From Picocystis sp. L7 (taxonomy: Eukaryota; Chlorophyta; Picocystophyceae; Picocystales; Picocystaceae), in contig QXJR01000005.1 in the NCBI GenBank assembly GCA_020975725.1, positions 1,093,072 to 1,157,071 of the forward strand: a stretch of 64,000 nt of DNA. The letters run 5' to 3'. Position numbers and translations under genes: made by a program. The notes under the pieces were generated by a model. That model was given only the letters and a program-made list of their open reading frames with translations. It was not told where the DNA came from and made no database searches. Each line of letters starts with the position of its first letter. The stretch's first letter is position 1. This document shows positions 1 through 63,047 of this stretch, one piece after another.

Positions 1-60
1 ACACATGTAGGAAAGTGCCGACACAAGCGTCCCTGAATCTGCATCATTGCAAACGAGTTC

Positions 61-19701: not shown

Positions 19702-19710
19702 CTGCGAGTT

Positions 19711-22047: not shown

Positions 22048-22053
22048 GAGCTT

Positions 22054-22068: not shown

Positions 22069-22375
22069 TATTGTGAGACTCGTCTGTCCTGCCTGAAAAG
22101 GGGGTCTGAAATCCCCTGGCCGAACCGAGCGTGGCGGTTTCGGACGATGGATGGGACGATGGCGTGGCGGCTCAAGGGGTTGCTCGACGTGGATACCAGA
22201 GAGTGTAACACATGCATTAACCCACTCAGTACATATAGTGGGTGGTATTTCATCAAAGTTAAGTCACGCGCATGATGAGGCGAGCACGGACACGGCTTGG
22301 TTCTCGGGGACGACGTCCTCGTCTGCGGTAGAGAATAAACTCCCACAGAGGGATCCTGCACCCCTTTTCTCAATA
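22069..22375 (-). repeat. 5' LTR of copia
   Basis: Copy of 17489-17795, 307 bp, TATTG..CAATA, followed by the AGAAA duplication. Confidence 0.95.
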
Positions 22376-24393: not shown

Positions 24394-25157
24394 TGTTCCA
24401 CCCAGCCCTCTCGAGACGCCTTTCTTGCCGAGGTTATCCTTTGACGATGAGGAATACTCCCTCGATCTTGAGGCCTTTGAGAGGTACTCAATCATATTCG
24501 GGCCATTTGCTTGGGACTTGTTTGCATCCGCGCACAATGCAGACTGTTCGACCTTCTTCACACGGGAGACAAATGCTCCGCCCAAAGAATGGGCTAGTCT
24601 CGGCAACGTGTGGGCACACCCACCTTGTTGCCTCATAGATTCCGTGGTGGGCAAGCTCGAGGCCGAACCAAGAGCCCTTGTGACCATGATTACTCCGCAT
24701 TGGCCAAAGGCTCCTTGGTTCCCTCGCTTGCAACATCTCGCTACCTATCAAGAGGTACTAAGGAGGCACGAGGGGCTCTTCACGGACTCTCGAGGCAGGC
24801 CTATGCCTGCTCCTCACTGGGACGTCCTCCTTCGCCATGTCCCTAGGTGAACGCACGGTTCGGACTAACCCCGAATAGGAACCGGTTTGTCCCCCTTACT
24901 AATAAGGGCTCTGTGGCTGATGAACCGGATAAATACGTGGTTCAGCCACGGGCGGATTACCCAATGGAGTATGTATGTAATAACAAGTGTGGCGGAAGGG
25001 AACAACAACAAGAGAACAACGTTCCCTGACGTTCCGCCCAACCATCTCGGCTGCCGCGGCGACGCCAACGAACGCACGAACGAGCGCGAACGCACGTTGA
25101 CGCCACCGCCCACGTCCTCTTCGCGCCATAGGAGGAGGTGGGCGCGCTTTCGCCACA
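24394..25157 (+). repeat. Solo LTR of gypsy C (plus orientation) with coding segment
   Basis: 764 bp, from TGTTCCACCCAGCCC to GCCACA, matching the 767-bp LTRs of gypsy C in reverse orientation relative to that element. It keeps an open 160-aa frame (24368-24850) equal to the C-terminal Dam/DIRS-like domain of gypsy C (IIFGPFAWDLFASAHNADC, HPPCCLIDSVVGKL). No internal gypsy sequence is attached. Flanks CTCTT and TCGTG do not match, so the duplication is not evident. Confidence 0.85.
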
Positions 25158-34301: not shown

Positions 34302-35174
34302 CTATCCCATTGCTATGTCTAGTGTTACCCAGCGGTTTGGGTACGACCCATGGTCTGTAGGATGGAGAATGGTCGTGCTGCGCTGCCGGCTGATTTTGCC
34401 CAGTTGGCAAGCATAACATTGTTTGCAGTAAGATTTGACGTCCTCGTGCATTTTAGGCCAGTAATATTGTCGCTTTAGCAGTTCGGTGGTTTTACGAACC
34501 CCCGGGTGACCTGCGTACGGCAAATCATGAGTGGTCATCAGGATGAGGTTTTGAACTGTGCGGTTGTTAGGAACATACAACCTTCTCTGCCCCTTGCTGA
34601 CCTTATACATGAGTCCATCCTGCTTCTGCAGAGTATCGGTCTCCTGAAGTTTCTGATAATCTGCGTCCATCGATGCCGCTTTCTCAAGTAGCGCATCCAA
34701 TTGGCTAATCTTACCAATGTCGACCGCTGTGAGTACTGATTGCAGAGGTTGCAAAGTAGTATTCTCAGCTTGGTAAAAAGGACTATCCTGTGCCCCGGGT
34801 GAGGGAAGAGGATAGCATGCTGCTGCTTGTTCATCATTGCTGTCGACTGTGTTGATCCAGATACGAATGATGGAGTTTATCCAGGAGACAGGGAACGCGT
34901 TGCCGAGCATACGGTTCCTGGTGGATTTATCCAACCCAGGTGCTGCTGTGTCTCCTTGCTGGAGCCCAACTAATAATTCTCGTTCTTCGGGAGCCATTTG
35001 CCTAGTGGTAGTGCCACCTTCTTGCTGAACCAATGACTGGCCATTTCTGACATTATGGGTGTTGTCCCAGCTGGCCATCAGCGTGGGCGCTTTTTCGGAC
35101 GGCGCTGTCCAACCTGATTGAAGACAGGCCTGCCAAGTAAGCGGCTGGACAATTTCCTTCGACAGCGGCTTCAT
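34302..35174 (-). pseudogene. Gypsy B DNMT C-terminal half and integrase H2C2 finger
   Basis: 290 aa. The first half completes the methyltransferase domain: a target-recognition-like stretch with PTLMASWDN, motif IX MAPEERELLVGLQQGDTA and motif X LGNAFPVSWI. The C-terminal part has the H2C2 integrase finger (HDLPYAGHPG, CKQCYACQ) and the first integrase Asp (TLDIAMG). It follows the N-terminal DNMT half in the same frame after a TAG at 35229-35231. Confidence 0.82.
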
Positions 35175-35228
35175 ATTTTCAGTGTCGAGATTACTCCAAA
35201 GCAGCCTCGTGCGCTGTTGCGCTGACCA

Positions 35229-36317
35229 CTAACTTAAGTCATGCTGGATAGGTTGCCCCAACCATTGCTGCACCCCTTCCAGATCTTTTTGCAAGTGCTG
35301 GGCAAACGGGGTGCAGTCAACTGCACAAAAGGTAGCTCGGCTGTGCATAAGTAGTTTCTGCACAACTTGAAATAGCAAACGGTCATCCTGCAATCCCTTT
35401 CCAGCAGGATTCGCTCTACTGAAAGGTTGGCATGGCACCCCTGCTATGATGTGGTCCACTGCAGGCAGTTTCCTGTTTGCCAGGTCCTTAACGTCATGAC
35501 CCAAACGGAATATGTCCTTGCGCAGGAAGAGACCAGGACGGTCGCGCCGAACTAAACTGAAGATTCTCTGAATAAGAGTGCGACAATCGGCATTGTTTTC
35601 AACTGCAATATAATTGATGCGAACATGGTTTGGTACTGCATGGACCAGGCTGCGGATTACAGTTCCTGTCCCTACACATAAATCGAGCACAGTGAGGTGA
35701 AGCACAGAACGTCCGCGGCTCAGCGCATCGGGCGGCAAATTAAACTTTCCAGGCTTGTACACTATGGTAAGCTGGAAATCGGCGAGCCGGGGTAACCACG
35801 ATAACTCGCGTTGCTGAAGCTTTGCTGGCTGCTTGTTCAGATAATGCACCAGTGCCTGATGGTCGGTGCGAACAACGATCGGGATACCCAACAAGTAATG
35901 CCGCCATGTCTGCAATGCTAGGACAATAGCTAGCATTTCCAGTTCAGTGGTAGTGTAGTTTTTCTGCGCACCCTGGAGCGACTTACTCCAATAAGCCACT
36001 GGGTGCCAATCACTGCTGTGTTGTTGGAGCAACACAGCTCCCAGGCCAACATTAGATGCATCTGTGTGAAGTTCAGTTGGGTATCCTGGAGTCCAGAGCC
36101 TAAGAACAGGTTCCGAAGTTAATGCTAACTTCAACTCAACAAACGACGATTCTGCTTGCTCATCCCAACGAGCGGCCAAAGGTTCGGTCGTCCTAGTTAG
36201 GTCGTAAAGCGGAGCCGCCTTTTCCTGGAAGCGAGAAATGAATTTTCTGTAATAACCTGCCAGCCCCAAGAAAGATCGCAACTGCGTTGGCGTCCTGGGT
36301 TGGGGAAACTCTCTCAC
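35229..36317 (-). pseudogene. Gypsy B RNase H and DNMT N-terminal half
   Basis: 362 aa. RT connection (FLGLAGYYRKFI), RNase H (ELHTDASNVGLGAVLLQ, TTELEMLAIVLAL, VRTDHQALVHYL), then from about residue 205 a C5-DNMT: LDLCVGTGT (motif I), YIAVENN (II), KDIFRLGHDV, AGVPCQPFSRAN (IV, catalytic Cys) and VDCTPFAQHL (VI). It ends at an in-frame TAG in the motif VI-VIII linker, where families A and E have Lys or Asn. One base change (AAG to TAG) would explain it. DNMT span about 34860-35700. Confidence 0.87.
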
Positions 36318-37698
36318 CGCCCCTATCAGTCTGGGGTCCGGTCGTAACTGTCCCTCCCCAATGACATGCCCCAGGTATGTAAGGTGAGTCTGAAACCAGG
36401 TGCTTTTTTTGCATATTTAGTCGGAACCGGTACCGATCGCAAATCTCCAGCACCTTCTCAAGTGTGTCTAACATGACCCGGAAACTGTCCGCGTAGATCA
36501 GCAGGTCGTCGAGGTAGCAAGCGACTGTGCGCTTGTCATATATGAGGTGATGGAACCTGGCATCCATCATGCGCTGGAAGGTAGCAACTGCGTTGCACAT
36601 GCCCATAACAAGTACCAACCACTCAAATAAGCCAAAGTGAGTGATGGTGCCAGTGTACCTCACACTGTCCGGATGCATGCGTATGTTGTAATAGGCTTCT
36701 TTCAGGTCCAGGCTTATGAAGAAGCGAGCCTGACTTAATCGATCCAGCAGTTCCTCGATGAGAGGTAGAGGGAAATGATCCTTAACTGTGACGTCGTTTA
36801 ACGCTCGAAAGTCCACGACGTCACGATCAGGCCCGTCCTTGCGCTTAACCATGAAAACTGCAGATCGGCAGGTCTCGCTGTCGCTGGCAGCCCGTTGCAT
36901 AATCCCACGCTTGCATCGGTGCGCAAATCGCTTCTGTAACTCAATTGTTGGGTCAGCGGCCAATCGTATCGGACGGGTTTGGACCCGCTGTGACCCCCCC
37001 TCGGTTAGGACGATACGATGATCAAATTCTGATGGCGGTGGCGGTGGTTCGTCGTCACCTGGTGGCTGCATGAGGTGCAGGTATTTGAACAGCAGGTGTT
37101 TTAGTTGTTGCTGCTGTGCTGAATCCAGCGACTCGGGCAATTGTAATCCCTCGACTGCCTCCCGAGTGACCGCCGGACGATTCTCCTGGATCGCTCCTAG
37201 CGTTGTCGTCTCGGCAGCGCTGTTGCGATTGATATGCAGAGCTACCATCCCACAGGCAGGGGCACTATGTCCAGCAGTTTCTGCTTGTTGCTTATAGGTC
37301 TTGTCTGCCGAAGGAATTACCCTACCCTTCTGCAAAAGGGGCTGTAATTCCCTGAACCATGGACTGCTGGGTAGATATGGGTTCAGGAGTACCAGGTCCA
37401 CTGGTGCCGAGGTTCGTAACTTCTGCGTAACCTGGGGCAGTAGTCTCAAAGGCGGGGCGCAGAGTATGGGCCCTGGCAATTCTGTCCAGTCTTGTTTCAT
37501 TGCCTCAACAGGATCCTCATAATTGAGTGATGCCAGCCCTGCCGTTGCTGAAACAAACAGGGTGGTACTGAATGGCCCAAACTCCTCTTCCAAGGTGCTG
37601 AAAGAAGTTGGGTGCTGAGCACTTAGCTCTGCAGTCGCCACGCTTACTGAAGCCAGGCCGTTGACGGAGGACGTCTCCCCTGTCCTGTTTTTGTCCAT
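36193..37698 (-). pseudogene. Gypsy B protease-RT linker and reverse transcriptase
   Basis: 501 aa. After a 210-residue linker rich in Pro/Gln come RT motifs: VFMVKRKDGPDRDVVDFRALN, HFPLPLIEELLDRL, ISLDLKEAYYNIRM, WLVLVMGMCNAVATFQRMMD and ACYLDDLLIYAD (YLDD box). The frame then shifts near 36400 so that the connection domain is read in the 35229-36317 frame. Confidence 0.87.
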
Positions 37699-37713
37699 GG
37701 CCAGCGTTATTGT

Positions 37714-38460
37714 CTAACCGCTATGTCTCAACTGAATTGTGTTGCGATTGACGTCCAGCGAAGCCCGGAGTTGCTTCATAACATCACAACCAAGGATCAT
37801 GTCAAAGTTCTTTGGTAGATCCATAGGTATCACCTTAATCTTTACCTTGATCTGTTCTTCCAACGGCAGATCGAACGGACCAAGAGCAACTGAAATCTGC
37901 ACAAGTTCGCTGGACGTATGCGCCTGGCCATTGGCGAACACGCTTCGCACAAAGTGTGCTTTGCTGATAATGGTACCCAGAGTGCTGAATTCTCTGTGAA
38001 TATAGGAACACCCTGCACCGGTGTCCCATAATGTTTTCAACTCTGTACCTTGAACGTAGGAAGGTCTGATAAAGGCCAACCCTCCAGACTGCGCCAAATT
38101 CACAACGATCTGAGGACAAGAGGATGCTGGAGGGTTCTCACCAGCCCCAATTGTCAAATCACTCAACTCAAATGTAGACAGCTCCCTGGCATAGTCCACA
38201 TGGTAATTATCACCATCTGAAACTGTTTCACTGCAAGGTGAATCACACACCGTTGCCGCCACGGGCATATCTCCAGCCCAGTCTTCACTTTCCTCAAGGA
38301 GGTGATGCCCTGTGGGACTCACCTGGATGGTGGGAGCAGGAACAGGATTCCCACCCTCACGCTCGCTCAAAGGGGAATTTGTCTCTACGCCCGCCGGGGT
38401 ATCCCGTTGCCGGGGGCCTGGCCGTTTCCCGTTTCCAAACTCTTTCCCTTGTTGGGGCAA
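37714..38460 (-). pseudogene. Gypsy B aspartic protease
   Basis: 248 aa. LKTLWDTGAGCSYIHREF has the canonical D-T-G-A active site, and DMILGCDVMKQL has the ILG element. Upstream residues 1-70 are a linker from Gag. A stop near 37714 separates it from the RT frame; the spacing suggests the original polyprotein was continuous. Confidence 0.8.
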
Positions 38461-41354: not shown

Positions 41355-44247
41355 CCCCAGCTCATTGTCCTATATATAGGACAATCGGGGACAATGACGT
41401 TTGGCGCGCGTTCGCCACCATAACCATGCGCGTTTCTTTTGCGCGTTCTAGGACGTGTAGAGAACTCTTTGGAGCTTTTAAGTCCACCCGCATGAGCGGA
41501 GAGATGCCCCGTGTCGTCGTCCAACGCCCCGTACATCCGACTCTTCGTCAACCCATAGGACAATAGCGCCCAACTTCGCGCGGTCCGTGTACACCCATCG
41601 CGCTCTCCCACGTCGCGTTGCACGGCTCATTTGAAGGCTTAGAAGCTCAACTTATCGATCTATTACTCTGTGGAGCTACGCCTCCGACTTCGCATCAGAC
41701 GGGCCGGTGCAGGTGTGCCCACGTCCGCCCCCGACACCCTCCGGCGTCGTCTAGAGGGGACTCTTGCCATGTGCAGTGCAACGCAATCACGGCCCATGTA
41801 TGGCCCACACAGGTAGGCAACGATGCCTTCGCTTGGCTTGTGACATGCCTGGCATGCTGCCGAGGCTTTCCTACCGCACATGACGCAGCGTTGCTGCGTC
41901 ACCTTCCTCACTTGCATGTCTTCGCCACTCGTCCTCATCACTTCCTCCAATACCACTCGACGGTGCGCACTTCCTCCACCCAAATCACCCATCGCAGCGA
42001 TCAACGGACGAAGACGGAGAGCTTGCTGCCTCTCCGTCTCCAACTCTGCCATTATCCACGGATTCTTAAGCAACTCCTTTGCGAGGAGCATCCTGCATTG
42101 CTTCTGTCGCACCTGCCCTGTTCCGTTCGCACGCATGAGCAGGAAGGTGTTCACCTCCGCCAATCCAATCAGCTCACTCAACTCGCGAATTCGAAAGTCG
42201 TGCGTTTTCCACACGTCGTGGAACGCAACGCTACCTGTTCGCAAACGGTTGTGCTGGTCCACAATGCTATACTTGGATCTGTACATCTGCGTTGTCTCAT
42301 CTACTGGGATTTGCTTTGCCAGCAGATGAGTGGTGTCCGTTGGATGCTTGATCATGTACTTCATGGTGCCTGCTGGCTGTGTGTTGAAGCAGGAAGACAC
42401 CAAGCAGAGTGGTACACCAGCAGGCCGACGATGGGCAGTTGCCTTGATCAAGGTGCGGGTCCTGCGCACAGAGACTTCTCCTGGAATGCAAACAGTCAGT
42501 CCAGGTTGGTTGGGCTCACTCGAAAGGAAACGTTGAAGTGCAGCCTTGGGGTAACCCCTCTGTGCTGTTTTCACATTCAACACGGAGTACACACCGCGCT
42601 CCAGCAGCGCACAGCATGTCTTGACTGACCCAAACCAGCTGTCACCAAGGCAAACACGCCCACTGCCAAAGAACGGTTTCATCAGCCTGAGGGTGGTTGC
42701 CGTTGTGGTGCCAAATTCTGCAAAGAATTCTTTCTCCTTCATCAAGCCTGCATTCTCCACTGGTTCCATACGAAAGCAGACACCAGTCAGCCCATCACAT
42801 ACAGTTTGTAGCTCCATGCCCAGCAGGTCAGGTTTCCTGCGCAGAAACATCCTAGAGGGCATGTACCGGCCCATCCATTTCAACATGGATTCATCCACAA
42901 CCACCAGCCTGCTTGGAGTGTAATGCCGGGATGCATGTGCATTCCATGCATCCCAGAACCGGCGCAGTTCCCAATGAGGATCATCTCGCAGTGTATGCAG
43001 GGTGCCTCTGGGTCCCTTGCAAGCTCCAGCTTGCTCAGGTCTGTCCACTCTCGCTCCTCGCTCCGCTGTATATTTTGGCACACTGTCTGCCAAAAATTCC
43101 AGGATGCGGTCAAAGTCCCTCCTGTAGAGGAACTTGTTGAGGTTGAAGTTGACCGCCAGTGGGTCCTTTTCCACATCAATCACCTGCCAGAAGGACTTTC
43201 TGCTGTGTCCAAGATGCAACAACATGTACACAAAGCACCCAAGCACCCTCAACAACATACCAGGTGTACACTCTCTGTCGTAAGACAAGAAAGTGTCACC
43301 TGGTCTGTTGTACTTGCTTCGACCACAGCTGGTGATCTTAGCGGTCCAATCAGGCAACAGTTCGTACGGAAAGAATCGTAGGAAATACTGCAATGCTTTT
43401 GTCTCATGAAAAGGCTCTAGTATGTAGGACGAAGGCGAGCCATAGCCTTGCTGCCTGTCCCTGACGCCATTGGCTGCACGTGAGTCGACGGTCACATGCG
43501 CCTCCTCTTCCTCCCACACCACTCCAACACCATTCCTCGCAACTTCGTTGGCGTCCACGCCATCTCCAAGCGGGTCTAAGCCTTCCTCGTGGAGTGTCGC
43601 GCACTCCTGGACGTCGAGGAAGGCCTCCTCCGGTGGTACCTCCGTGGGTGGAGGTACCAAGTCGTCATCCTCACCGGCATCCATTCCGGTGGGTCTTTCT
43701 TCCTCCGTGGTCGCGCGCTGCGGTTCTTCTTCCGGTGGTTGCTCGACAACCCTGTAACGGTTCACCGTTTCGTCGGTGACCGGCCATTCCTCCGCCGAGG
43801 TGCCCGCCGTGTGGCAGCGAACGATGGCCTCCTGCTCCCCTCTACGTAAACGTACGAGGCGGAGCACCACGCCGTCATACCACGTGTCGCTCCACGCCTC
43901 CCCATGCGCTTCACGGGCCCATTCGAAGCCAAATTCGGTTGCTGGAATGCGAACGCGCGCTCCGATGAGCGGATTCGGCGGCCGTTGCTGGCGTTGCTTC
44001 CGTCGCGGGGCCATGCGCGATCACGTCCGAAAACCCGTAGGGCTTCCTTCGTGGTTCGACCGCGCAAAAACCAATACTGAACTTGCTCATCGGAATTCCG
44101 TCCCATGATTGGAACGCGTCGTGGGTATTCAGGCATCAATTCTCCCATCTAAATTGGGCAATTTGCAGAAAAACGTTTCTATAGGGAAGATCGTCCTACA
44201 TATAGGACAATAACACCCTCATTGTCCTATATATAGGACACATGGGG
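41355..44247 (-). mobile_element. piggyBac-like DNA transposon
   Basis: Ends CCCCA..; both termini carry the perfect 16-bp palindrome GTCCTATATATAGGAC (41367-41382 and 44224-44239), with a third near-copy at 44193-44208. The terminal region continues as an inverted repeat (..GGACAAT..GGG). The usual TTAA duplication is not visible at these ends. It contains one intact transposase gene on the minus strand. Confidence 0.8.
41663..44014 (-). CDS. piggyBac-like transposase (DDE_Tnp_1_7)
   Basis: 783 aa without a break. Residues 14-90 form a small beta-rich module (LIGARVRIP, WYDGVVLRLVR) resembling a Tudor/SH3 fold. 95-190 is acidic and disordered. 200-660 is the transposase domain with the three catalytic aspartates in VVVDESMLKWMG (D374), VCLGDSWFGS (D458) and YSIVDQHNRL (D586). 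The Cys-rich C-terminus (710-745, CVMCGRK, CQACHK, CGPY) matches the cysteine-rich domain that binds the element ends. The tail is arginine-rich (nuclear signal). PiggyBac enzymes cut and paste without footprint at TTAA. This gene looks functional. Confidence 0.92.
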   Translation of the reverse strand: MAPRRKQRQQRPPNPLIGARVRIPATEFGFEWAREAHGEAWSDTWYDGVVLRLVRLRRGEQEAIVRCHTAGTSAEEWPVTDETVNRYRVVEQPPEEEPQRATTEEERPTGMDAGEDDDLVPPPTEVPPEEAFLDVQECATLHEEGLDPLGDGVDANEVARNGVGVVWEEEEAHVTVDSRAANGVRDRQQGYGSPSSYILEPFHETKALQYFLRFFPYELLPDWTAKITSCGRSKYNRPGDTFLSYDRECTPGMLLRVLGCFVYMLLHLGHSRKSFWQVIDVEKDPLAVNFNLNKFLYRRDFDRILEFLADSVPKYTAERGARVDRPEQAGACKGPRGTLHTLRDDPHWELRRFWDAWNAHASRHYTPSRLVVVDESMLKWMGRYMPSRMFLRRKPDLLGMELQTVCDGLTGVCFRMEPVENAGLMKEKEFFAEFGTTTATTLRLMKPFFGSGRVCLGDSWFGSVKTCCALLERGVYSVLNVKTAQRGYPKAALQRFLSSEPNQPGLTVCIPGEVSVRRTRTLIKATAHRRPAGVPLCLVSSCFNTQPAGTMKYMIKHPTDTTHLLAKQIPVDETTQMYRSKYSIVDQHNRLRTGSVAFHDVWKTHDFRIRELSELIGLAEVNTFLLMRANGTGQVRQKQCRMLLAKELLKNPWIMAELETERQQALRLRPLIAAMGDLGGGSAHRRVVLEEVMRTSGEDMQVRKVTQQRCVMCGRKASAACQACHKPSEGIVAYLCGPYMGRDCVALHMARVPSRRRRRVSGADVGTPAPARLMRSRRRSSTE

Positions 44248-45684: not shown

Positions 45685-46451
45685 TGTGGCGCTTGGGCGC
45701 CCACCTCCTTTTCCTATGACGCGAAGACGATGAGGGTGGTGGCGTCGACGTGCGTTCCCGTTCGTTCGTGCGTTCGTTGGCGTCGCCGCGGCAGCCGAGA
45801 CGGTTGGGCGGAACGTCAGGGAACGTGGTTCTCTCGTTGTTGTTCCCTTCCGCCGCAATTAGTATTACATCTTAACTCCACTGGGTCATCCGCTCGTGGC
45901 TGAGCCACGTATTTATCCGGTTCATCGGCCACAGAGCCCTTATTAGTAAGGGGGACAAACCGGTCCCTATTCGGGGTTAGTCCGAACCCTGCATTCGCCT
46001 AGGGACATGGCTGAGGAGGACGTCCCAGTGAGGAGCAGGCATAGGCCTGCCTCGAGAGTCCGTGAAGAGCCCCTCATGCCTCCCTAGTACCTCCTGGTAG
46101 GTAGCGAGATGCTGCAAGCGAGGGAACCAAGGAGCCTTTGGCCAATGCGGAGTAATCATGGTCACAAGGGCTCTTGGTTCGGCCTCGAGCTTGCCCACCA
46201 CGGAATCTACGAGGCAACAAGGTGGATGTGCCCACAGGTTGCCGAGACGAGCCCATTCTTGGGCGAGAGCATTTGTCTCCCATGTGAAGAAGGTCGGACA
46301 TTGGGCATTGTGTGCGGGTGCAAACAAATCCCAAGTAAATGGCCCGAATATGATTGAGAACCTCTCAAATGCTTCGCGATGGAGGGAGTATTCCTCATCG
46401 TCGAAGGACAACCTCGGCAAGACAGGTGTCTCGAGAGGGCTGGGCGCAACA
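45685..46451 (-). repeat. 3' LTR of gypsy C, with coding segment
   Basis: 767 bp. Bases 45977-46451 encode the last ~158 residues of Pol. 46452-46463 on the minus strand (GGTCCGGGAGGG) is the polypurine tract, so that tract also lies within the coding frame. Confidence 0.92.
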
Positions 46452-47419
46452 CCCTCCCGGACCACCATTAAGCCCAACTCAGCCCGATCGTCGAGTGGCT
46501 CTGGCGAGACGAGGGAAGCTTGGCCGTACACGGCCGCCATAGGATCGAATAGGATCGTGTGTGCGTCATCGAGACGGTAGAAGGAAGTAGTCCCGTCCGT
46601 CCACCGGATGACGTAAGCAGCGGGAGAAGATTTCGCCGCTTTTCGAAAGCGTTCCACAAGGCCAGTCCAACACTCTAGGCGAGTTGAGCCGTCCATGAGC
46701 TCGAGCAAGAACCTTGCTTGCACGACTTGCCCAACCAAGTTCGTACTCGGCGGTTTCGCAAAGCGCGGTTTCCTTAGGCTAGTGTATGGCAGAGCGTACG
46801 GCCACGTATCCTTTAGGATGGGCCTCTTCTGGTGATAAAATTTGGACTTGTAGCGAGACACGCGACTCTTGTTACGTGCGGTGATGCCTTGCTCGGGGAA
46901 ATGCCCGAGGAGTTCCTCGATCTCACAAACGTGGTCGATGAGATCCGACGTTTCCTCTACGAACCCGCGATGTTCGTGAAGAGGGGCATCGGCGCTACAA
47001 GCAAATTGGACATAGTACCTAGGTGGAAAAGTGGTCCAATCACGTATGTAGAAGCGCTCTACCTGGAAACGAGTTTCCTCTGATCCATTTGGGAGAGGAA
47101 CCGTTTGAGGTTCAGGAGTAAGTTCGCGATGGGGGAACTTTGAATGGTCGCTCTCATGCCAAGGATGCAGTCGTTCGATATTGACTGTGGCGGAATGTCG
47201 AGTGCCGTCGGGTAGGACCAAGCGGTAAGCTCCCTTTGGTAACACCTCGCCAATGGTGTACGGCCCTACAAAGTAGCTCTCGAGCTTTCCTTTGTCCCTG
47301 GAGGACTTCAGACCGCGTTGCAGTTTGACTTTATCCCCGACGCAAAAGCGTCGAACCTGCCTTTGGCGGTTTAATCTATCTTCAACTTGTTTTTGATAGA
47401 GGGCGTGTCGTTTTTGCAC
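45977..47419 (-). pseudogene. Gypsy C integrase C-terminus, Tudor-like module and Dam/DIRS-like domain
   Basis: 480 aa, in frame with the main Pol frame but separated by a single TAA. Order: SH3/GPY-F part (YFVGPYTIGEVLPKGAYRLV), the FYIRDWTTFPPRYYVQF block, HFPEQGI motif, Tudor-like module (CWTGLVERF, YVIRWTDGTTSFY), then the domain encoded inside the LTR (46105-46365): FGPFTWDLFAPAHNAQCP, WAHPPCCLVDSVVGKL and PHWPKAPWFPRLQ. This is the pattern of the Dam-like segment of DIRS elements and phage N6-adenine methylases (F-G-x-F-x-x-D-x-x-A ... N-A-x-C ... N-P-P-Y). The NPPY motif is HPPC here, so enzyme activity is doubtful. Confidence 0.78.
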
Positions 47420-50400
47420 TTAAGCATAAAGCTCTCGGCGAGCGTCAAACAGCGAATGGAGTTGCTTGCACGCATGGTCTGCATTCTCTCTTAGGAGGGA
47501 ATATGTCCACGGCAAACTGGCGTTCGTACCGAAGAGAACGTAATGAGGAGAGTAGCCACTAACTCCATGCACCGATGTATTGTAGGAGAAGGACGCTGTT
47601 TGAAGCAGCTCGTCCCACTCTACATCTGGCCGTGATGTTGCCAATGCCCGAAGGGTGGATAAAAGGGTGCGGTGCTGCACCTCCACTCCTCCTTGTGTCT
47701 GGCTATGGTATGGCGCACCACTTTTATGCTTGGCCCCAAGCTCGATCAAGAATGGATCAAAGAGCTCGCGAAATCGGGGCCCGTCGTCGGTGAGGACAAT
47801 GCGCGGACTTCCGAATGGATGGATTACTCGGTCCATGAGCACTTTGGCAACGTCGTGCGTTGTCCAGTCGGTGTGCATCGGGAAGTAGAGAGCGTACTTG
47901 GTGAACCGGCATGTCACGGTCAACACCGCATTGTGACCTCTCGAAGTGACGGGAAGTCCGACCACTTCGTCTACCGCAATCGTATGGAAGGGGTAAGGGA
48001 AGATCTCTTGCATGTGGACGAGATGCTTCGCAGGTCGATTGCTCGGCTTTAGGAGTTGGCAGCGTGGCCAAGTACGGACGAAGTCGATAATGGAAGACTT
48101 CATACCCTGCCAAACAAAATGTTGTCGGCATTGCTCATAGGTGCGTTGGGCGCCAAAATGGGCATCGGAGTGGACACGGTCCACAAGTCGTTGTCGCACT
48201 CCAACATCGTTCGGCACCACCAGGCTAACACGATCTGTTACACGATCCGTGCGCCACACGAGTCTGTCTTGAACTTCGTGTTGTGGTGGTGGTGAGGCTA
48301 CAAGATCTTGGTAAGCTTTGTCTTTCTCACCGGCACATTGCACCAATGTATACAAATCTTCCTCCTGGGGGTCAACCGATGGATTCTCAAGGGAACCACC
48401 CATAGCTCGAAGAGCTGGCCCGGGAGGGGGTTCAACGAGTGCTGGGATGGTGAGCAAAGGCATCGACCGCCGGAGGAGGTTTGCTAAGGTGATCAGCCTG
48501 AGATCAGGACCTTGGTTGACTTGCAACGTAGTGCGCACAGTGAGGCCGGACGCAAGCATATAAGACTTGGTAGCGCGAGCACGCGTTCCATTATACGTGG
48601 CTGAGTGAATCACGTGGGTAGAGGCAGGCAACCTATCGAGGAGTCGGTTGCAAGCAAGCACGTCAAGGTGCTTGTCGTCTGCTAAGAGCACAACATGAGC
48701 TGGCGGGAGCCGCTTGCGTTTGGCTACCTCCGCTAAGGAAGTCGTCTCAAAACGGAGGGGACGGCTTGTACGCCATCGAACGGGGGCCTCTAAGCGTGCT
48801 CGATCGTATTGCAGCATCCAACGTTCGCGAGCAGCTTTGGATCGAAAGGTACCTATGACCGCTAGATCCAGGGAAAGCGTGGACTCGATCAACAAGATCT
48901 CTTCCAAGGAGGGGATCAAGTCATCCGTGGGTGGCCCAACGTAAAGGACACGGAAAACTTGGCCCCTGTCCCAGTCCGTACGACTGAGAGCGTCCGCTCC
49001 AGGATTGGCGATGCCTTGGCGATATTGGACCTCGAAAGGCGTGAATTCGGCCAAGGCGTCTAGCCAGCGGATCTCCCGAGAGGAGAGTTGATCAGCATTC
49101 TTCGTTTGCAAGTATTTGGACGCAGTGTTGTCGGTTAAGACAGTGAAAGAGCGTCCTTGCAGAAGATGCTTCCACTTGACGAGACTTTGCAAAATAGCAA
49201 GAGTCTCTTGCTCAGCTGTGGAGTAGTTGCGTTGGGCATCATTGAATTTTCGCCCATAGTAAGCAACGGGATGCCACTTGCCATCCTCATGTAGTTGAGA
49301 AAGAATCGCGCCGGTGGCGATCTTACTAGCATCCGTCTCTACGCGTGTCTCTCTCTTCGGACCGTATTGGACGAGGACGGGCTCTTGAACTAGAGCAGCC
49401 TTGAGGCGCTGGAACGCGTCCTCTTGAACCTCAGTCCAGGAGCCAACGAAGTCTCCTTTAAACGCCTTTCTATTGATGTCCGAAAGAGGAGCAGCAAGAG
49501 TGGGGAAGTCCTTAATGAAGGAGGAGTAGTAATTGCACAAGCCTAAGAAGCTTTGATTCTCCTTGATGCTAGTTGGCCGGGGAAAGTTCTCAATTTTCTC
49601 CACGAGACGCTTTTGCATCATCACTCGGCCATCGCCAATATGGAATCCGGCGTAGTCGAGGGCTTTCTTAAAGAGCGCCGTCTTCTCCTTGGCAAGCACG
49701 ATATGCTCTGCCTTGCACCGTTGGAAGAAAGCCTCAAGGTGATCCAAGTGATCAGCCTCCGACCCATAATGAATGAGAATATCATCCATATACGCCTTGG
49801 TGTTCGTGAGCGGGGAGACGATGCGATTCATCATCCGCTGAAAGATGGAGGGGGCGTTTGCCAAGCCCATTGGCATGACACGCCATACGAACGGACCAAA
49901 TGGCGTCACGCATGCTGTTTTGTATTGATCCTCTGGGGCCACAAGCATGTTGTAAAACCCGTCTTTTACGTCAAAGGACGAGAAGAACGTCGAGGTGCTC
50001 CAATCTAAGAGCAAGTCATCAATCACGGGTAAAGGATACTTGTCCTTGATCGTGAGATTGTTCAGCATGCGATAGTCAAAGACAATGCGGTAGCGCCCAT
50101 CCTTTTCTGGGATGAGGAGCACCGGGGCTCCGAATGGCGATCCGGGCGAATGCGCCATCTTGCCGTCTTTGAGCAATTGGTCTATGAGCTCTCGAGAGGC
50201 CTTGGTCTTCTCCGGAGAGAGACGAATGGGTGGCCGACTCTTGGGTCTGGTTTTGGCGGTGTCCAAGGGTATGCGGCACACTTCTCTTGGTACTCGTTCA
50301 GGAGGTAAGGCGAAGCTTTCCTCTTTGCTACGAAACATCGATGCATACTTAAGGAGGAGCTTGTCGAGCCGTTTCTTATGTTGGGAAGTGAGAGAGTGAT

Positions 50401-51532
50401 CCTCAAAGAGAGTAAGGCTAGCTATCCTTTCCCCGAGATCATCCTCGTCATGTTCCAAGTCGGGTAGACGTTGGATGAGCACGAAAAGACTACCTTTGCG
50501 AGCCTTGCGGCTTGCGCGTAAGATGTGGGCGGCTTCTTGCATCGACCAATACGCGTCTAGCCCATGCTTTGAGGCGAACTTGGAATCGCCACAAAGTTCA
50601 TGCTTCTTCCACTGGTAAAGAAACGTTAGAACGCTCCTAGGGAACTCTAAGCTCGCGTGGTAAGAGACCAGAAAGTCCATTCCAAACACAACATCATAAG
50701 TGTTGAGAGGGCATACTGCGAAAGGCCTCCGGATTGTGACCTTGTCTATGGTAAAGGTCAATTCCACGAGGGGTGCCTTGTACAACGTCTCACCTACACC
50801 TAAGCGGTACGTAAGGTTTTCGTCTGTAGGGGTGGATGTTCGACCATTTGGGTCGGCACGGCACATGCGCTCATGAAAACTAAAGCTTACGAAGTTATGA
50901 GTAGCGCCTGTGTCGACAAAGGCTTTTGCCGCCAACCCCACTAAGGAAAGCGTCACGACCATGCTCGTGCATAGTCCGGAGCTAAACTCGCAAAGCGTGC
51001 CGATGGTAGGCGGGGGGTTTACGCTCGATGGTGTCAAGTGAAGGGGAGAATGCAACTCTCCCGGACTTGGTGGGAACTCCGGGGGTGCGTCCACCTTGGG
51101 AGTTTGCACCGGGACCGAAGCGTGCAATGGAGGAGGGCAAGGATAGCGGTTTTCACAAGCACAATTATCCAAAGTCCTATTACATATTGCACACTTAGGT
51201 GCTTCACTACATACCGAGCATTTGGAAGGATTTACATACGTCCTTTCCCTTTGCCTTGGCATTGACATAGCGAGCAATTCACCGTCAGCCGACCGTGCTA
51301 GGTCATCTTGAGCTTGAAGCTCCTTAGGCAGATCGCTACTCAACAACATACCTTTACACGCGGAGGCGCCACGACGGGTTTTCTTCTTCCCGCCGGGCTT
51401 AAAGGCGCGCTGGTTTGGAGCCAGCGGAGCTTGCGAAGGACCTCCTTGGGGCCTTGTCCAACCTTGGGCAGCTTGAAGTTGCCCGAAGGTTAACGCCAAT
51501 GCTGGAATCTGCACCATTGCTTCATGAGGCAA
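47420..51532 (-). CDS. Gypsy C Pol: protease, RT, RNase H, DNMT-like relic, integrase
   Basis: 1370 aa. Residues 100-135 are Cys-rich (CSVCSEAPKCAIC, CACENRYPC), a zinc-binding knuckle replacement. Protease FVDTGATHNFVS (about 205-216) with VVFGMDFL. RT from about 460: LLIPEKDGRYRIVFDYRMLN, FFSSFDVKDGFYNM, KAYMDDILIHY (YMDD). RNase H: RVETDASKIATGAIL, AEQETLAILQSL, VLTDNTASKYL. Bases 48440-48965 hold the DNMT-like relic. Integrase: finger HSDAHFGAQRTYEQC with CQLL (first Cys of CxxC is changed in WPRCQLL), core IAVDEVVGLPV, VLTDDGPRF and GGVEVQHRTL. It overlaps Gag by 43 bp in a different phase, implying frameshifting for Pol. Its stop at 47420 is premature. Confidence 0.9.
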   Translation of the reverse strand: MPHEAMVQIPALALTFGQLQAAQGWTRPQGGPSQAPLAPNQRAFKPGGKKKTRRGASACKGMLLSSDLPKELQAQDDLARSADGELLAMSMPRQRERTYVNPSKCSVCSEAPKCAICNRTLDNCACENRYPCPPPLHASVPVQTPKVDAPPEFPPSPGELHSPLHLTPSSVNPPPTIGTLCEFSSGLCTSMVVTLSLVGLAAKAFVDTGATHNFVSFSFHERMCRADPNGRTSTPTDENLTYRLGVGETLYKAPLVELTFTIDKVTIRRPFAVCPLNTYDVVFGMDFLVSYHASLEFPRSVLTFLYQWKKHELCGDSKFASKHGLDAYWSMQEAAHILRASRKARKGSLFVLIQRLPDLEHDEDDLGERIASLTLFEDHSLTSQHKKRLDKLLLKYASMFRSKEESFALPPERVPREVCRIPLDTAKTRPKSRPPIRLSPEKTKASRELIDQLLKDGKMAHSPGSPFGAPVLLIPEKDGRYRIVFDYRMLNNLTIKDKYPLPVIDDLLLDWSTSTFFSSFDVKDGFYNMLVAPEDQYKTACVTPFGPFVWRVMPMGLANAPSIFQRMMNRIVSPLTNTKAYMDDILIHYGSEADHLDHLEAFFQRCKAEHIVLAKEKTALFKKALDYAGFHIGDGRVMMQKRLVEKIENFPRPTSIKENQSFLGLCNYYSSFIKDFPTLAAPLSDINRKAFKGDFVGSWTEVQEDAFQRLKAALVQEPVLVQYGPKRETRVETDASKIATGAILSQLHEDGKWHPVAYYGRKFNDAQRNYSTAEQETLAILQSLVKWKHLLQGRSFTVLTDNTASKYLQTKNADQLSSREIRWLDALAEFTPFEVQYRQGIANPGADALSRTDWDRGQVFRVLYVGPPTDDLIPSLEEILLIESTLSLDLAVIGTFRSKAARERWMLQYDRARLEAPVRWRTSRPLRFETTSLAEVAKRKRLPPAHVVLLADDKHLDVLACNRLLDRLPASTHVIHSATYNGTRARATKSYMLASGLTVRTTLQVNQGPDLRLITLANLLRRSMPLLTIPALVEPPPGPALRAMGGSLENPSVDPQEEDLYTLVQCAGEKDKAYQDLVASPPPQHEVQDRLVWRTDRVTDRVSLVVPNDVGVRQRLVDRVHSDAHFGAQRTYEQCRQHFVWQGMKSSIIDFVRTWPRCQLLKPSNRPAKHLVHMQEIFPYPFHTIAVDEVVGLPVTSRGHNAVLTVTCRFTKYALYFPMHTDWTTHDVAKVLMDRVIHPFGSPRIVLTDDGPRFRELFDPFLIELGAKHKSGAPYHSQTQGGVEVQHRTLLSTLRALATSRPDVEWDELLQTASFSYNTSVHGVSGYSPHYVLFGTNASLPWTYSLLRENADHACKQLHSLFDARRELYA
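48440..48965 (-). other. Shrunken DNMT-like segment within gypsy C Pol
   Basis: About 175 aa at the position of the ~290-aa DNMT in families A, B and E. Shared spacing and residues remain (RLEAP versus RLAAP; KRLPPAHVVLLA versus RRLPRVDLAIAG; LLDRLPASTHVIHSATYNG versus LLDRLPSANYIIECTPFA; DLRLITLANLLRR versus ELRPLTIREKERL). The glycine-rich motif I, the PCQ catalytic cysteine and the CGNAFP motif are gone. The frame is open, so a structural role is possible. Homology is my by-eye alignment. Confidence 0.65.
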
Positions 51533-53743
51533 CCCTTGAGGAGTTGGGCCGGGCCGTAACGAGGTTGGCCGCTTCCCAAACCTGCTATACGTGCATAAGT
51601 GGGAGCCTTTGTAGGGTTCGGCAGAAGAGGAGATTTTCCTTTGCCTTTCCTACCACCTAGATGCCCTTGGGGTTCGGAGGGGAGTTGTCCTTCAAAGTGT
51701 TTCACCTCGCGGAGAAGTTGTTCTCCATTGACAATTTCCTGCCCTACTCTTGGAGCTTGCCGGATGTGGTTGTCAAGGGGCCTCCCCAATTGAGGTCGAA
51801 GCTTTGCTCGAAACATTATGAGGAAAAAATGCTCCCGGAACCTATGCTGGGCCTTTGGGGTACGTGAGGCATGCAAGAATGGATCGGCGGATTCCATGGC
51901 CCCTTCGACTTCTTTGCGCATGCGCAAATAGAACTCTTCCGCACTCTCGCCGTGGCGTTGGTAGCCACGGGCGAGCTCGGAGACGCATTGCCATCCAACA
52001 TCGTATGGGTAGTAGTGACGACGTAACACACTCGAAAATTGCTTCCAAGTGGTCGGCGGATGTGCTTGCGTGGCCAATTTGTAGAATCTTTGCGCACTCC
52101 CTATAAGGTAGCGTGCAGCAAGGGCGACTTGCGCTTGTTCCTTGTCTGATTGACCGGACGTGAAGTCTCGGACCGCTTGGAGCCAATCTCCCAAAGAGTG
52201 ACGGTCGAGCCTCGTACCGTCGAAGGTCGGCGGCAGGGGAAGTGTGGCACGCGTGATCCTCTCTGGATCAAGGGCCATCACAGCCGGAGGGCGCACGTCG
52301 TGTGGCTCCTCCACTTGACCTGCACGAACCAAGGCACGTTCGATAAATTTATCGCGTGCACCATGGCTTTCCTCGTGCAGACGATCTACGAATAGATCGA
52401 GCGCAGATTCTTGGAACGCCATTTGGGCCCATTGAGTGAAAGACCCTTTTGGTTGCGACTCTCGAAGAAAGTCGAACAAGTCCATCGCATTGGTATATAG
52501 CTTGTGAGCCTCGTGCGGAGGAAGCGCAGCCATAGTACGCAACTTCTGGTTACGGGCGTTTGCAAAGCCAGCAACTTCACGTTGCCGCTTTAATCCAATG
52601 CGCTCGCGCTCTTCCTCGACAGCTACTTCACGGCAAACGAGCTCGTGATCGTAGAGCTTTTCGAGTTGAGCAAGGTCTCGCAACATGTTCGTGCGCGACC
52701 TTTGGATGGAATCTTTCTTCTTTTCGGAGGTGGCGGGAGCCACTCTCCGAGCGAGTATACGACACTCGCGGGAGTAGGAGTTTTTCAACTCTTTCACGGC
52801 TCGAAGCTTGTCGTCTGTGAGACGACGCGGTTCGGCCTTCCACTCCAAAATCCAGACAGGAAGAGGCCGATTCACGTACCGGAGTCGTTCCTCGGTGTGG
52901 GGCTCAAGCAAGTCCGCTTCGGGTTCTTGCTTGGCTTCGACCTCTCCTTCGAAGAGAAGATTCTCGAGGCGGGTCGGCGGTAGGCTCTCACTCGCGCTCT
53001 CATCCATGGACTCGGTCTCTGACCCTTCGTTTTGGCCTCGAGCCTTCCTCGTTCGGGTTGGAGGCCTATCAGGCTCAATGGCCAATGGGGCAGTCCCAGT
53101 AGAGGGTTCAGCCAATGGCGAGCCCCCAATAGGGGCTTCTGCCAGCAGCGAGCTCCCGAATCCTGCGTCAGCCAATGGCGAGCTAGGAGTTGGGGCATCA
53201 GCCAATCGGATCGCTCAATTCACGTGGGCGCTTGCGCGCGCAACGACGCGCGCATGATCGGTGCGATCGACACGCCGATCGGCACGCGCGACAGGTCGAG
53301 CAGTAGCCTCGGAGGCACGACGCAGCTTCCGTGCGTCCGAGGAGGCCAGATCGGCTTTCGCAGCCGATCTTTTGGCCTTTTTCCCACGGTGCTCGAGGGT
53401 TTCGAAACCCTCGAGCGCACCGTCGTCCGGAGACGCCATGGCCAAGGCCGTGGGGGTGCGAACGGGATCCATAGCCTCTCGACCACCTCCATAAGCACGA
53501 GGCTTCTTCTGCTGGGAGGTGGGAGCGGCGAGCGCAGCTTTCGAAGCCGTTTTCCGCTCCTTTTCGTTCGCCTCCTCCACGAAACCCTTGCGAGAGGTTC
53601 GTGGAGGCACGGCGCCTCTCTCCGGGCGCGCGCGTTGTCGCTTGGCGTCGGCATTGCCGACAGCCGCCACCATCCAGGCGGCGAGGGGTCCTTGACCGTT
53701 GGCGTTGCCGGCGCGTCCCTCGCTCGCTCCCTTTTTCTTCGTC
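51490..53743 (-). pseudogene. Gypsy C Gag
   Basis: The frame 51490-53205 (571 aa) and the in-phase upstream frame starting MTKKKGASEG at about 53743 are separated by one TGA (53215-53217), so the original Gag was about 750 aa. The N-terminus is Ala/Arg/Lys-rich. At the junction there are short repeats of the type S-PLA-A-x-x-G (SSPLADAGFG, GGSPLAEPSTG). 200-290 is a charged helical region. The capsid core (ALDPERITRATLPLPPTFDG, DWLQAVRDF, YYPYDVGWQCVSELARGYQ, ESAEEFYLRMRKEVE) is of the gypsy retrotransposon Gag type. No zinc knuckle at its end; the Cys-rich piece is at the start of Pol. Confidence 0.8.
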
Positions 53744-53785: not shown

Positions 53786-54552
53786 TGTGGCGCTTGGGCG
53801 CCCACCTCCTTTTCCTATGACGCGAAGACGATGAGGGTGGTGGCGTCGACGTGCGTTCCCGTTCGTTCGTGCATTCGTTGGCGTCGCCGCGGCAGCCGAG
53901 ACGGTTGGGCGGACCGTCAGGGAACGTGGTTCTCTCGTTGTTGTTCCCTTCCGCCGCAATTAGTATTACATCTTAACTCCACTGAGTCATCCGCCCGTGG
54001 CTGAGCCACGTATTTATCCGGTTCATCGGCCACAGAGCCCTTATTAGTAAGGGGGACAAACCGGTCCCTATTCGGGGTTAGTCCGAACCCTGCATTCGCC
54101 TAGGGACATGGCTGAGGAGGACGTCCCAGTGAGGGGAAGGCAAGGGCCTTCCTTGGGCATCCGAGAATATTCCCTCATGCCTCCCTAGTACCTCCTGGTA
54201 GGTAGCGAGATGCTGCAAGCGAGGGAACCAGGGAGCCTTTGGCCAATGCGGAGTGATCATGGTCACAAGGGCTCTTGGTTCGGCCTCGAGCTTGCCCACC
54301 ACGGAATCTACGAGGCAACAAGGTGGATGTGCCCACAGGTTGCCGAGACGAGCCCATTCTTGGGCGAGAGCATTTGTCTCCCGTGTGAAGAAGGTCGGAC
54401 ATTGGGCATTGTGTGCGGGTGCAAACAAATCCCAAGTAAATGGCCCGAATATGATTGAGAACCTCTCAAATGCTTCGCGATGGAGGGAGTATTCCTCATC
54501 GTCGAAGGACAACCTCGGCAAGACAGGTGTCTCGAGAGGGCTGGGCGCAACA
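53786..54552 (-). repeat. 5' LTR of gypsy C
   Basis: 767 bp, as the left LTR, but with a local block (about 54136-54173) carrying a cluster of differences while the encoded peptide stays similar. The Dam-like frame is open here as well, and by chance continues into flanking DNA up to 54641. Confidence 0.92.
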
Positions 54553-58692: not shown

Positions 58693-61600
58693 CTATAATC
58701 CAAATTGAACTTTGACTTGCTGGCCAACTTGAAAGGTACGTTGTTGGTTGCCGCGACGTTGATGCATTAATACGCGTTGTTTATCGAGCATATGCAGTAC
58801 TTTCTGATACATTTGCTTCTGTTTCTCCAGGAATGTTGTAACACGGGCATCCAGTGAAGGGACAAGGTCTGTGACAGGGGCGACATCGCCCACGGACGGC
58901 AACTGCAAGTGCCAAGGTAGTCTGGATCTGCATCCATATAGTAGCTCAAAGGGGGCGAAGCCAAGAACGGCATGTATGCTGTCATTGTAGCCGTGAGCTG
59001 CTGCTTGTAAAATATCATCCCAATCTCTTTTGTCATTGCACATAGTGCGTATTGAAGTGAGAAGAGTTCGATGTTGTCTTTCGGCACCTCCTTGAGACTG
59101 TGAATGGTAGGGCGTTCCCGTAATGTGCTGAATTCCCAGGGCAGTACAAAATGCATCGAACAGTTTACGATACATTGGTCCATTATCTGTATGGATGCGT
59201 GTTGGACACTGGTAACGATAAACCACATGATCCAATAATAGCGTTGCTTGTCGAAAGGCACTCCAGCAAGTGTGTATAGGAATATACACAGCAAATTTGG
59301 TAGATTTATCCACGACCGTGATAACGGCGTTGTGGCCTTGCCTAGAAAGAGGGAAACCTTCCACAACATCAAGTACCACAGTATGAAATGGGTGTGGATA
59401 AAAACGAGCTTCTGGGAACATGACCTGGTGTCGGGACTGCGTGCTTGGTTTCTGCAATTGACATGTAGGACATTGCTGAACAAAGGAGGTGCACTGTTTC
59501 TTGTACCCATGCCAGTAAAAGTGACGACGAAGCTCGGCCCATGTGCGGGCTTGTCCAAAGTGAAATTTGTCATGGACCAAATGCAGAAGGTCTTGTCGGA
59601 GAGAAAGATCTGCAGGTATAACTAATACAGCCGGGCCATGGTTAGCCTCCATGGGTTGCGGCTGAAGAAAGAGTAAATCTAAATGCTTGACATATTCAGT
59701 CGGTGGTTGCTTCAAGTTCCGAACATATTCTGGATCGGCCTGAGCTGCTGTTCTTATGCGTTCAATAAGTGGCACTACGGTAGTGTCAGAGACAGCAGCA
59801 AGCTGATGTTCCGGTGAGGCAGTCCCTACGGTGGGGCTAGCTTTGGCCAAAGCGTGTTCAGGCGTTGTTGAATTGGGAATTGTATCATCAACGTCAGCTG
59901 TCAAGGACATGGAATCCTGCACATGCAAACTGTGGCGCGCTAGCAGTCTAGATGCTTGTGTATACAGGTGGATTCCTTTGCGTTGATGAACCAGCCCCAA
60001 TAGTACAGGAGGGGGTGGTTTCCGTAACACCGCGCTGAGCATTGGGGCAATCCAACCCACAGGGAAGGCATTGCCACACATATGATGGCGAGCTCCATCG
60101 CAGACCCCGTACGCTTGCGTATCATTAGGCCTCATACCCGTCAGGCGTTCCTTTTCGCGAATTGTTAGTGGTCTTAATTCATGGTTTGAATTATAGACCC
60201 AGGTGGATTTTGATCGATCCGAATGTGACTTCTTTGAGGCCATAAGAGTGGGGCATTTACTGATAAGTATGCCATATTCATCGACAGGTGGGGATGATTC
60301 TGGATCCAAACATTCTTGCCAAGTATAGGGCACCCCTGGATACCGATATTGAGCTGTGTGGCTGTCCAGGCTTACAGTGGTCCAAACCAAGCGTTGGCGT
60401 GCCTGGGCCGAGAAATTGCTCATATCATGGTGTTCTGGTGCACCAAACCATTCTTGTACCTGTTGCAGGTGGGTATCCAGGTGTCGAGCGAACGGGGTGC
60501 ATTCAATGATGTAATTGGCACTAGGCAACCTATCCAGCAGGGCCCGTACTACGCTAAAGAGTTCTCGTGCGTCCAGCAGTCCCAGGGGTGATGCTTCTGT
60601 ATTAGTGTTAGCCCTGGAAAATGGTTGGCAGGGTACACCGGCGATAGCCAGATCTACGCGGGGAAGGCGGCGTCGACCCTTTAATATCTGAACATCATTC
60701 CCAAGACGAAAGATGTCTGTGCGTACAAACATGGTTGGGGCTGCGAGCCGCACATAGTTAAAAACCCGTTGTATAACCAATCTGCACAACGGGTCGCGTT
60801 CGACTACGATGTAATCAATGCGGTGGCTTGAGTTGCAGGTTAATTCTAAAGCCCGTAGAACAGTGCCCATTCCAGCGCACAAGTCCAATATGCAGAAGGT
60901 TGGAATTTCTTCACCCTGGTTTGGAGGGTGTCTTGAAAGATAGTCTGCCGGCACATTTTCTTTGCCTGGGCGGTATAGAATCTCAAACGGTGCAAAGAAC
61001 TGTAATTTTTCCATCCATCGTATGTCGCGTTGGCTAAGCTGCTCTGTTCCCTTGGTCTGCAAGTAATGTGCAACCTTGCTATCGGTCAGAATCGTAAAGG
61101 GCTGACCAAATAATAGATGCTGCCAATGCTGCAGGGCATAGATGATGGCACAGGTCTCCTTCTCAGCGGGGTAGTAATTCCTGTGAGATGAGTTCCACCG
61201 CTGGGAGTAATATTCAACTGGTTTCCAATTGTGGTTCTCTGTAGATTCCCGGTGGGGACATTGGGATAATACTGCACCCATACCAGCATCCGATGCATCT
61301 GTTTCTACCCGAGTCGGTAGGTCTGGATCATACAAAGCAAGGACAGGATTGGAAATGAGTGCTTGTCGTAACTGCACAAAGGCTCGGTCACATTCTGAGT
61401 TCCAATAATCTGCAAAGTCCAGCTTGTATGTCTTCTTGTTTAATTCCACCAGCGGCGCGGCTAGTTCCACATATCGGTCGAGAAATCGACGGTAAAAGTT
61501 GCATAGCCCCAAGAAGGCTAAGTTCTGCTTCTGCGTCTGTGGTTTTGGAAAGCGTCCGATTTTATCGGTCAAAGTTTCAGTTGGGGTAATCTGTCCATTC

Positions 61601-62964: not shown

Positions 62965-63047
62965 TGTTTTTCCAGGAAATCTGTTCTAGAGAGGTCCTTC
63001 CTCTCCCCGCTCCATACTAGCAGCCTGGTCTGCTGGTTGGAGCTTAC

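Follow-up and report, generated by a model that had tools for sequence, protein, structure and literature searches.

Why does a long terminal repeat (LTR) of a retrotransposon encode a domain related to adenine methyltransferases, and is such a domain likely to methylate anything? This question is raised by a 64,000-nucleotide stretch of the genome of the green alga Picocystis sp. L7 (contig QXJR01000005.1, positions 1,093,072 to 1,157,071, hereafter the window), in which an integrase-bearing Ty3/gypsy element, referred to here as gypsy C, carries the last 157 codons of its Pol frame within its 3' LTR. We report that this tail is a domain of the Dam family (PF05869), that it appears from codon comparisons to be selected as a protein, and that its altered active-site motif makes catalysis doubtful. 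On balance, a binding role for the tail next to integrase is the explanation that we favour.

The LTR-encoded tail is a Dam-family domain

In Pfam, the LTR-encoded domain matched PF05869 (Dam) with an E-value of 1.2e-11 and 45.1 bits, above the curated cut-off of 28.1, and this was the sole match of the tail up to E 10. The similarity to the Dam family that had been proposed from the letters of the sequence thus passed the profile check. The domain also matched PHROG 111, annotated as 'DNA methyltransferase' (E 5.1e-13), and is about 30% identical to phage N-6-adenine-methyltransferases (best E 8e-4). Across the alignment with these phage proteins, residues D41 and A44 and both Pro of the N-P-P-Y motif are nearly invariant. 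A protein search with the 480-residue piece that includes the tail returned no match at E 0.001; the 157-residue domain alone recovered relatives, including nine EukProt proteins. Searching the PDB by sequence gave two chance-level matches (E 0.13 and 1.7), which were disregarded, and by profile none. The structure model has a mean pLDDT (predicted local distance difference test) of 83.3, and the predicted fold is closest to adenine methyltransferases, foremost PCIF1/CAPAM.

Anatomy of gypsy C

With its protease, reverse transcriptase (RT), RNase H and integrase in that order, and its LTRs, gypsy C qualifies as a Ty3/gypsy element. The features of the element, and of a related LTR elsewhere in the window, are the following (ORF, open reading frame).

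45685..46451 (-), 3' LTR, 767 bp
45980..46450 (-), Dam-like domain in the U3 region of the 3' LTR, 157 codons plus the stop 45977-45979
46452..46460 (-), polypurine-tract-like CCGGGAGGG, crossed by the open Pol frame
45977..47419 (-), remaining Pol frame: SH3_Tf2-1 (GPY/F-like) module, then an uncharacterised stretch, the Dam-like tail and its stop
47420..51649 (-), Pol ORF: protease (PF08284), RT, RNase H and integrase by Pfam
51490..53214 (-), Gag-like ORF: PF03732, E 2.3e-4, 21.7 bits, under the 24.1 cut-off
53786..54552 (-), 5' LTR, 767 bp, a mosaic of two LTR lineages
54081..54551 (-), Dam-like frame as present in the 5' LTR: 157 codons, open, 96% identity, no stop within the match
24394..25157 (+), third LTR copy, of a divergent lineage, probably a solo LTR

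Both LTRs of gypsy C have TGTTGCG...GCCACA ends and differ from each other by 20 mismatches; the sequences flanking the element (TACAAAGAAT before, GACCATTTTT after) show no target-site duplication. That the element bears an integrase, as had been stated, is confirmed by Integrase_H2C2 (47.4 bits, above cut-off) and by a match to rve which is slightly below the cut-off of 32.6 in the window copy (31.2 bits) and reaches 39.5 in the sister copy L030. From position 47419, the Pol frame is open over 480 codons, passes the integrase SH3_Tf2-1 module, behind which the Dam-like domain sits, and runs through CCGGGAGGG into the 3' LTR. The original prediction had given the LTR part as about 158 codons, in agreement with the 157 codons and stop found here. 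Upstream, a stop at 47420-47422 interrupts the frame in this copy, and Pol and the Gag-like ORF are in different frames, so that the reading of gypsy C as encoding a single polyprotein rests on sister copies. In the third LTR copy, the domain frame (24395-24865) contains one stop, near its end. Scanning the window for Rfam families and tRNAs gave no matches.

Copies in the genome

The genome of the window (20.5 Mb, 30 contigs) contains at least 147 matches to the LTR-encoded domain, 91 of them near full length (at least 139 of 157 residues). We compared the LTR pieces of 50 of the 147, namely the best 30 and another 20 of lower rank. The domain is stop-free in 65 of the 91 near-full matches and in 36 of the 50 compared copies; as the sample is biased towards full-length in-frame matches, these figures are upper bounds. 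Counts of frame-breaking indels were dropped as evidence for frame conservation because the copies had been picked by in-frame protein match. Twenty-three pairs of matches on the same contig are 8.03-8.13 kb apart, the spacing expected of a 5' and a 3' LTR, and by eye the members of each pair lie on the same strand.

Six matches fall within single frames of 2,668-2,672 codons, and matches to RT and the integrase zinc finger report equal frame lengths at the same places. The four of these six that were among the compared copies (L016, L018, L023 and L030) all have the junction of Pol, polypurine tract (PPT) and LTR. This junction (GGTCCGGGAGGG/LTR) is identical in 15 of the 50 copies, and the remaining 35 begin at other flanks, as would be expected of 5' or solo LTRs. 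A long open frame alone was not accepted as a copy's own Pol: L007 (1,586) and L020 (1,065) have no Pol/LTR junction. When the PF05869 profile was run against the genome, 101 matches were obtained, all over the cut-off, and those compared by eye were family C copies.

The gypsy C family is matched by EukProt proteins that carry the label of a haptophyte, Pavlova lutheri, and two of them, P0006 and P0008, show extended identity by eye to L040 and L032. Among the light-harvesting proteins encoded in the genome is one that matches chlorophyll a-b binding and LHCI chains in the PDB (best 9vfj 'LHCI-2', next 6kac, which we take to be from Chlamydomonas). Set against this chlorophyll a-b type, the identity of P0006 and P0008 points to a possible mislabel or contamination in the public dataset.

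Selection on the LTR-encoded protein

The window 3' LTR (L001) was compared with a representative of the common LTR (L030) over codons 21-157. Nonsynonymous divergence (dN) was 0.068 and synonymous divergence (dS) 0.452, a ratio of 0.15 (Fisher p 1.5e-10), with 32.5 synonymous changes over 95.7 sites and 20.5 nonsynonymous changes over 315.3 sites. Over all 157 codons, L001 gave ratios of 0.15-0.20 with L004, L007, L013, L016, L018, L023, L025, L030 and L050, of 0.19-0.26 with L036, L039, L044, L046 and L048, and of 0.23 with its sister 5' LTR L002; the ratio was 0.53 with L031, a decayed copy with three stops. In the two alternative frames, three copies tested gave 0.68-0.85 and 2.9-3.9 (0.85 and 3.0 for L001 and L030 over the whole domain). 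Since every comparison involves L001 and the common lineage, together they amount effectively to one contrast: 45 of the 50 copies are nearer L030, L001 and L002, the two LTRs of the window element, clearly belong to the other lineage, and L027, L037 and L043 are nearer L001 but nearly tied. This between-lineage contrast was preferred to codon-position variability among the 50 copies (0.035, 0.026 and 0.045 at the three positions, 0.094 in noncoding sequence), a weak signal, because that set mixes in decayed copies. Taken together, these codon comparisons make the tail appear to be under selection as a protein, and frame conservation across family C LTRs, on which the original prediction depended, is borne out by the low ratio and by the stop-free majority in the in-frame-leaning sample.

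The active-site motif

Among 52 aligned phage/bacterial-type relatives, out of 93 new matches from outside EukProt, the first residue of the N-P-P-Y position is Asn in all 52; the motif reads NPPY in 48, NPPF in two, NPPC in one and NPDY in one, and D41 is present in 51. The 50 LTR copies read HPPCC (39), HPPYC (5), HPPSC (4), HAPCC (1) and YPPGC (1), that is, HPP in 48 of them and neither Asn nor Asp in first place in any, and thus differ from the catalytic N-P-P-Y of phage and bacterial PF05869 members. According to a review, the motif of m6A enzymes is [DNSH]PP[YFW], and the METTL16 variants N184A and F187G are listed as inactive in methylation (PMC7927073); a figure legend likewise gives the first residue as D/N/S/H (PMC8868631). 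On the strength of the published motif and the METTL16 mutants, the loss of the aromatic residue outweighs His in first place. The resemblance to phage N6-adenine methylases that had been noted stands as about 30% identity, but with the catalytic motif altered N6-adenine methylation is not to be assumed, and to judge from the motif, catalysis by the LTR-encoded domain is doubtful.

A second Dam-like domain in gypsy D and the cytosine methylases

A sister family, gypsy D, has a Dam-like domain outside the LTR.

37246..37713 (-), Dam-like domain of gypsy D, between protease and RT; PF05869 E 0.01, 16.0 bits, under the cut-off
34305-38460 (-), gypsy D element with both the Dam-like domain and a PF00145 cytosine-methylase stretch

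The relationship was also seen by tblastn, in which the LTR domain matched 15 gypsy D copies with E-values from 3e-10 to 3e-6; the gypsy D domain was likewise picked up in a window scan whose profile included one row from it. The order in gypsy D is protease, Dam-like domain, RT, RNase H, PF00145 stretch and integrase. In 16 copies (15 from the genome and one from the window), the motif is VPPLR in 12 and APPLR in four, hence [AV]PPL throughout, so that gypsy D has lost both motif ends, and it has lost D41 as well. Over a 97-codon stretch, two gypsy D subfamilies nevertheless give dN 0.058 and dS 0.391 (p 1.1e-7); synonymous sites have reached saturation in the comparison with a third subfamily. 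A fold kept while the motif is lost argues, as far as sequence comparison goes, for a non-catalytic use in gypsy D and, by extension, possibly in gypsy C.

A PF00145 stretch ahead of the integrase zinc finger was found in two more gypsy elements of the window, 2815-4365 and 58696-62985 (-), and 121 matches to PF00145 occur in the genome, many within long frames. In gypsy C, no cytosine methylase was recognised by Pfam. The original prediction that families here carry two different methyltransferase-type modules consequently holds for the genome, and for gypsy D, which has both, but not for gypsy C. In gypsy C, the segment that separates RNase H from integrase (48404-48994 (-)) is collinear with the cytosine-methylase region of the sister families but lacks PCQ, and is possibly the remnant of such a methylase. 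Its location and an identity of 25% over 123 columns hint at this, with weak support from profile comparison (hhalign probability 3.8%, E 0.011; hmmsearch -0.2 bits). Elsewhere in the genome, at G000:C4:1047861-1065383, gypsy D integrase, cytosine-methylase and Dam-like matches recur at an exact period of 7,149 bases, which suggests a tandem array of elements with shared LTRs.

Comparison with known retrotransposons and methyltransferases

As in gypsy C, a PF05869-type domain occurs in the Pol of DIRS retrotransposons of the Dictyostelium DIRS1 type (PMC3783388; PMC3266345). These elements have the order RT-RNase H-methyltransferase (MT), a tyrosine recombinase, and repeats that are inverted or split, and the function of their MT domain was called unknown in 2011 (PMC3266345). 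Gypsy C, in contrast, has a DDE-type integrase, direct 767-bp TG...CA LTRs, and the domain behind integrase within the LTR. An MT directly behind RNase H, as in DIRS, is absent here, since the domain stands behind integrase in gypsy C and before RT in gypsy D. PF00589 detects DIRS recombinases, as PF05869 does fungal DIRS MT domains (PMC3783388); no match to PF00589 was obtained in the genome at E <=0.001, with 14 of 14 controls, all prokaryotes, positive. The 'DIRS-like' part of the original prediction is therefore limited to a shared domain family. In a 2019 opinion paper, Dam domains are assigned to DIRS elements, and cytosine methylases to both gypsy and DIRS elements (PMC6338049).

Coding sequence in a gypsy LTR, which as the original prediction pointed out must be duplicated with each copy, has precedents. 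In CRM-type elements, as in gypsy C, the Gag-Pol frame runs beyond the PPT into the 3' LTR, and Beetle7 and Bingo, Ty3/gypsy elements of Beta vulgaris, are likewise extended (PMC3605345). The LTR of CRM group A chromoviruses encodes a chromodomain-like CR motif, and a figure legend also lists a putative targeting domain (PMC3059260), whereas the gypsy C tail has no CR or chromodomain motif and instead has about 140 residues of methyltransferase fold. The Klebsormidium element KnitGypsy-Dnmt3 resembles the gypsies described here in that a gypsy Pol acquired a DNA-methyltransferase module; this is, however, a cytosine methyltransferase, of another enzyme family than the Dam-like tail, and no mention of an LTR location was seen for it (PMC5890265). 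Phage DNA N-6-adenine-methyltransferases (PF05869, PHROG 111) are of the same family as the gypsy C tail, which differs by H-P-P-C/S/Y for N-P-P-Y in 48 of 50 copies and by its fusion to Pol. PCIF1/CAPAM and METTL14 belong to the cellular RNA methylation machinery, unlike the tail, and PCIF1 retains NPPF. Among the leading results of a literature search, which took in few subscription papers, we found no Dam-type domain in an integrase-bearing gypsy element and no LTR-encoded methyltransferase fold. The gypsy elements add another setting for the domain, with apparent selection on it but a changed catalytic motif, and provide a testable case of retrotransposons using this fold for binding rather than methylation.

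Possible roles of the tail

The gypsy C Gag-Pol polyprotein would end in 157 residues encoded by U3 of the 3' LTR, which would place a methyltransferase-fold tail at the C terminus of integrase. Reverse transcription copies the U3 of the 3' end into both LTRs, so that the tail is present in every insertion and solo LTR, and only the 3' copy is read in Pol. With somewhat better than even confidence, we propose that the tail is a selected Dam/PCIF1-type fold which is no ordinary N6-adenine methylase and acts mainly in nucleic-acid binding or chromatin targeting for the pre-integration complex. It would be non-functional as a methylase of the usual kind, and would bind nucleic acid or chromatin on behalf of integrase, in the way proposed for the CR motif of CRM.

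Several observations weigh against this proposal. The integration-targeting role is drawn by analogy; five of the 50 copies read HPPY; D41 is retained in 47 of 50, so that methyl-donor binding may survive; and the published motif admits His in first place, which by itself does not exclude catalysis. Moreover, noncoding LTR differs between L001 and L030 at 38 of 301 columns, fewer than at synonymous sites, implying that the LTR is further constrained or recombined, and both the single contrast behind the selection test and the upper-bound nature of the frame counts should be borne in mind. The tail could be an active DNA or RNA adenine methyltransferase with a His-type motif, marking element cDNA, element RNA or host DNA, an alternative to which we give a real but minority chance: similarity to PF05869 and phage Dam, a fold match to the RNA adenosine methyltransferase PCIF1/CAPAM, retention of D41, the permitted His and purifying selection all speak for it. 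It is countered by the Cys or Ser after PP in the HPPCC and HPPSC copies, where enzymes have Y, F or W, by the METTL16 variants F187G and N184A, either of which abolishes methylation (PMC7927073), and by gypsy D, similarly conserved without both motif ends and D41.

The tail might instead affect the host in trans, for instance by attaching to the DNA of silenced copies and so blocking host methylation or repair, and not serve integration. This would accord with the cytosine-methylase stretches of sister families, which make methylation a recurring theme; the fusion of the domain to Pol behind integrase speaks against it, and we regard it as improbable. If the stretch were kept for cis-regulation and the open frame were incidental, the fair conservation of the noncoding LTR between lineages would be explained. 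Differences nevertheless pile up at synonymous sites (0.15, p 1.5e-10), which largely refutes this reading, the signal is weaker or reversed in other frames, and there is a full protein-domain match, so that we hold it to be very unlikely. Hardly any weight is left for the LTR or tail as a piece of a nested DIRS element foreign to gypsy C: the same Pfam domain does occur in DIRS elements (PMC3783388), but the genome has no tyrosine recombinase match, the six frames are continuous, and 15 of the 50 copies share one Pol/LTR junction; on the first and last of these grounds a DIRS origin was rejected.

Exchange of LTRs between lineages

In the last 400 Pol codons before the LTR, the window element is 97.2-98.5% identical to ten other 3' LTR copies, chosen by GGGAGGG preceding the LTR, with dS of 0.024-0.050. 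Divergence rises sharply about 50-60 bases into the LTR (window positions about 46390-46400): between L001 and L030, one of 60 bases differs at -10..50, and the next 60-base blocks show 8, 10, 6 and 9 differences. Given the nearly unchanged Pol and this jump, the window element carries a divergent version of LTR and tail on a common Pol, and a recombination breakpoint lies about 50-60 bases inside the 3' LTR, where common Pol is joined to divergent LTR. All 16 coding differences of the 5' LTR from the 3' LTR are in the common-lineage state. Over its first 474 bases, the third LTR copy (24394-25157) is nearer the window 3' LTR, from which it differs at 39 positions, than L030, from which it differs at 73. 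Gypsy C is therefore an example of LTR exchange carrying along a protein domain.

A wider idea, which we put forward as speculation with rather low odds, is that the LTR is a protein-coding cassette in which a promoter repeat and a methyltransferase-fold nucleic-acid reader travel together and are exchanged between elements. A single recombination would then swap both expression timing and binding by the integrase complex, and the genome may hold methyltransferase writers and non-catalytic readers in one gypsy group.

Other elements of the window

A presumably copia-like element (17489-22368 (-)) is probably young, as two 300-nt stretches of its direct repeats are 100% identical. A DDE_Tnp_1_7 transposase ORF, which we assume to be of the piggyBac type, lies at 41666-44020 (-), and an HTH_Tnp_Tc3_2 (Tc1/mariner-type) ORF at 9076-10302 (+) lies between two direct repeats of 300 nt, at 8093 and 10903, which are identical to each other.
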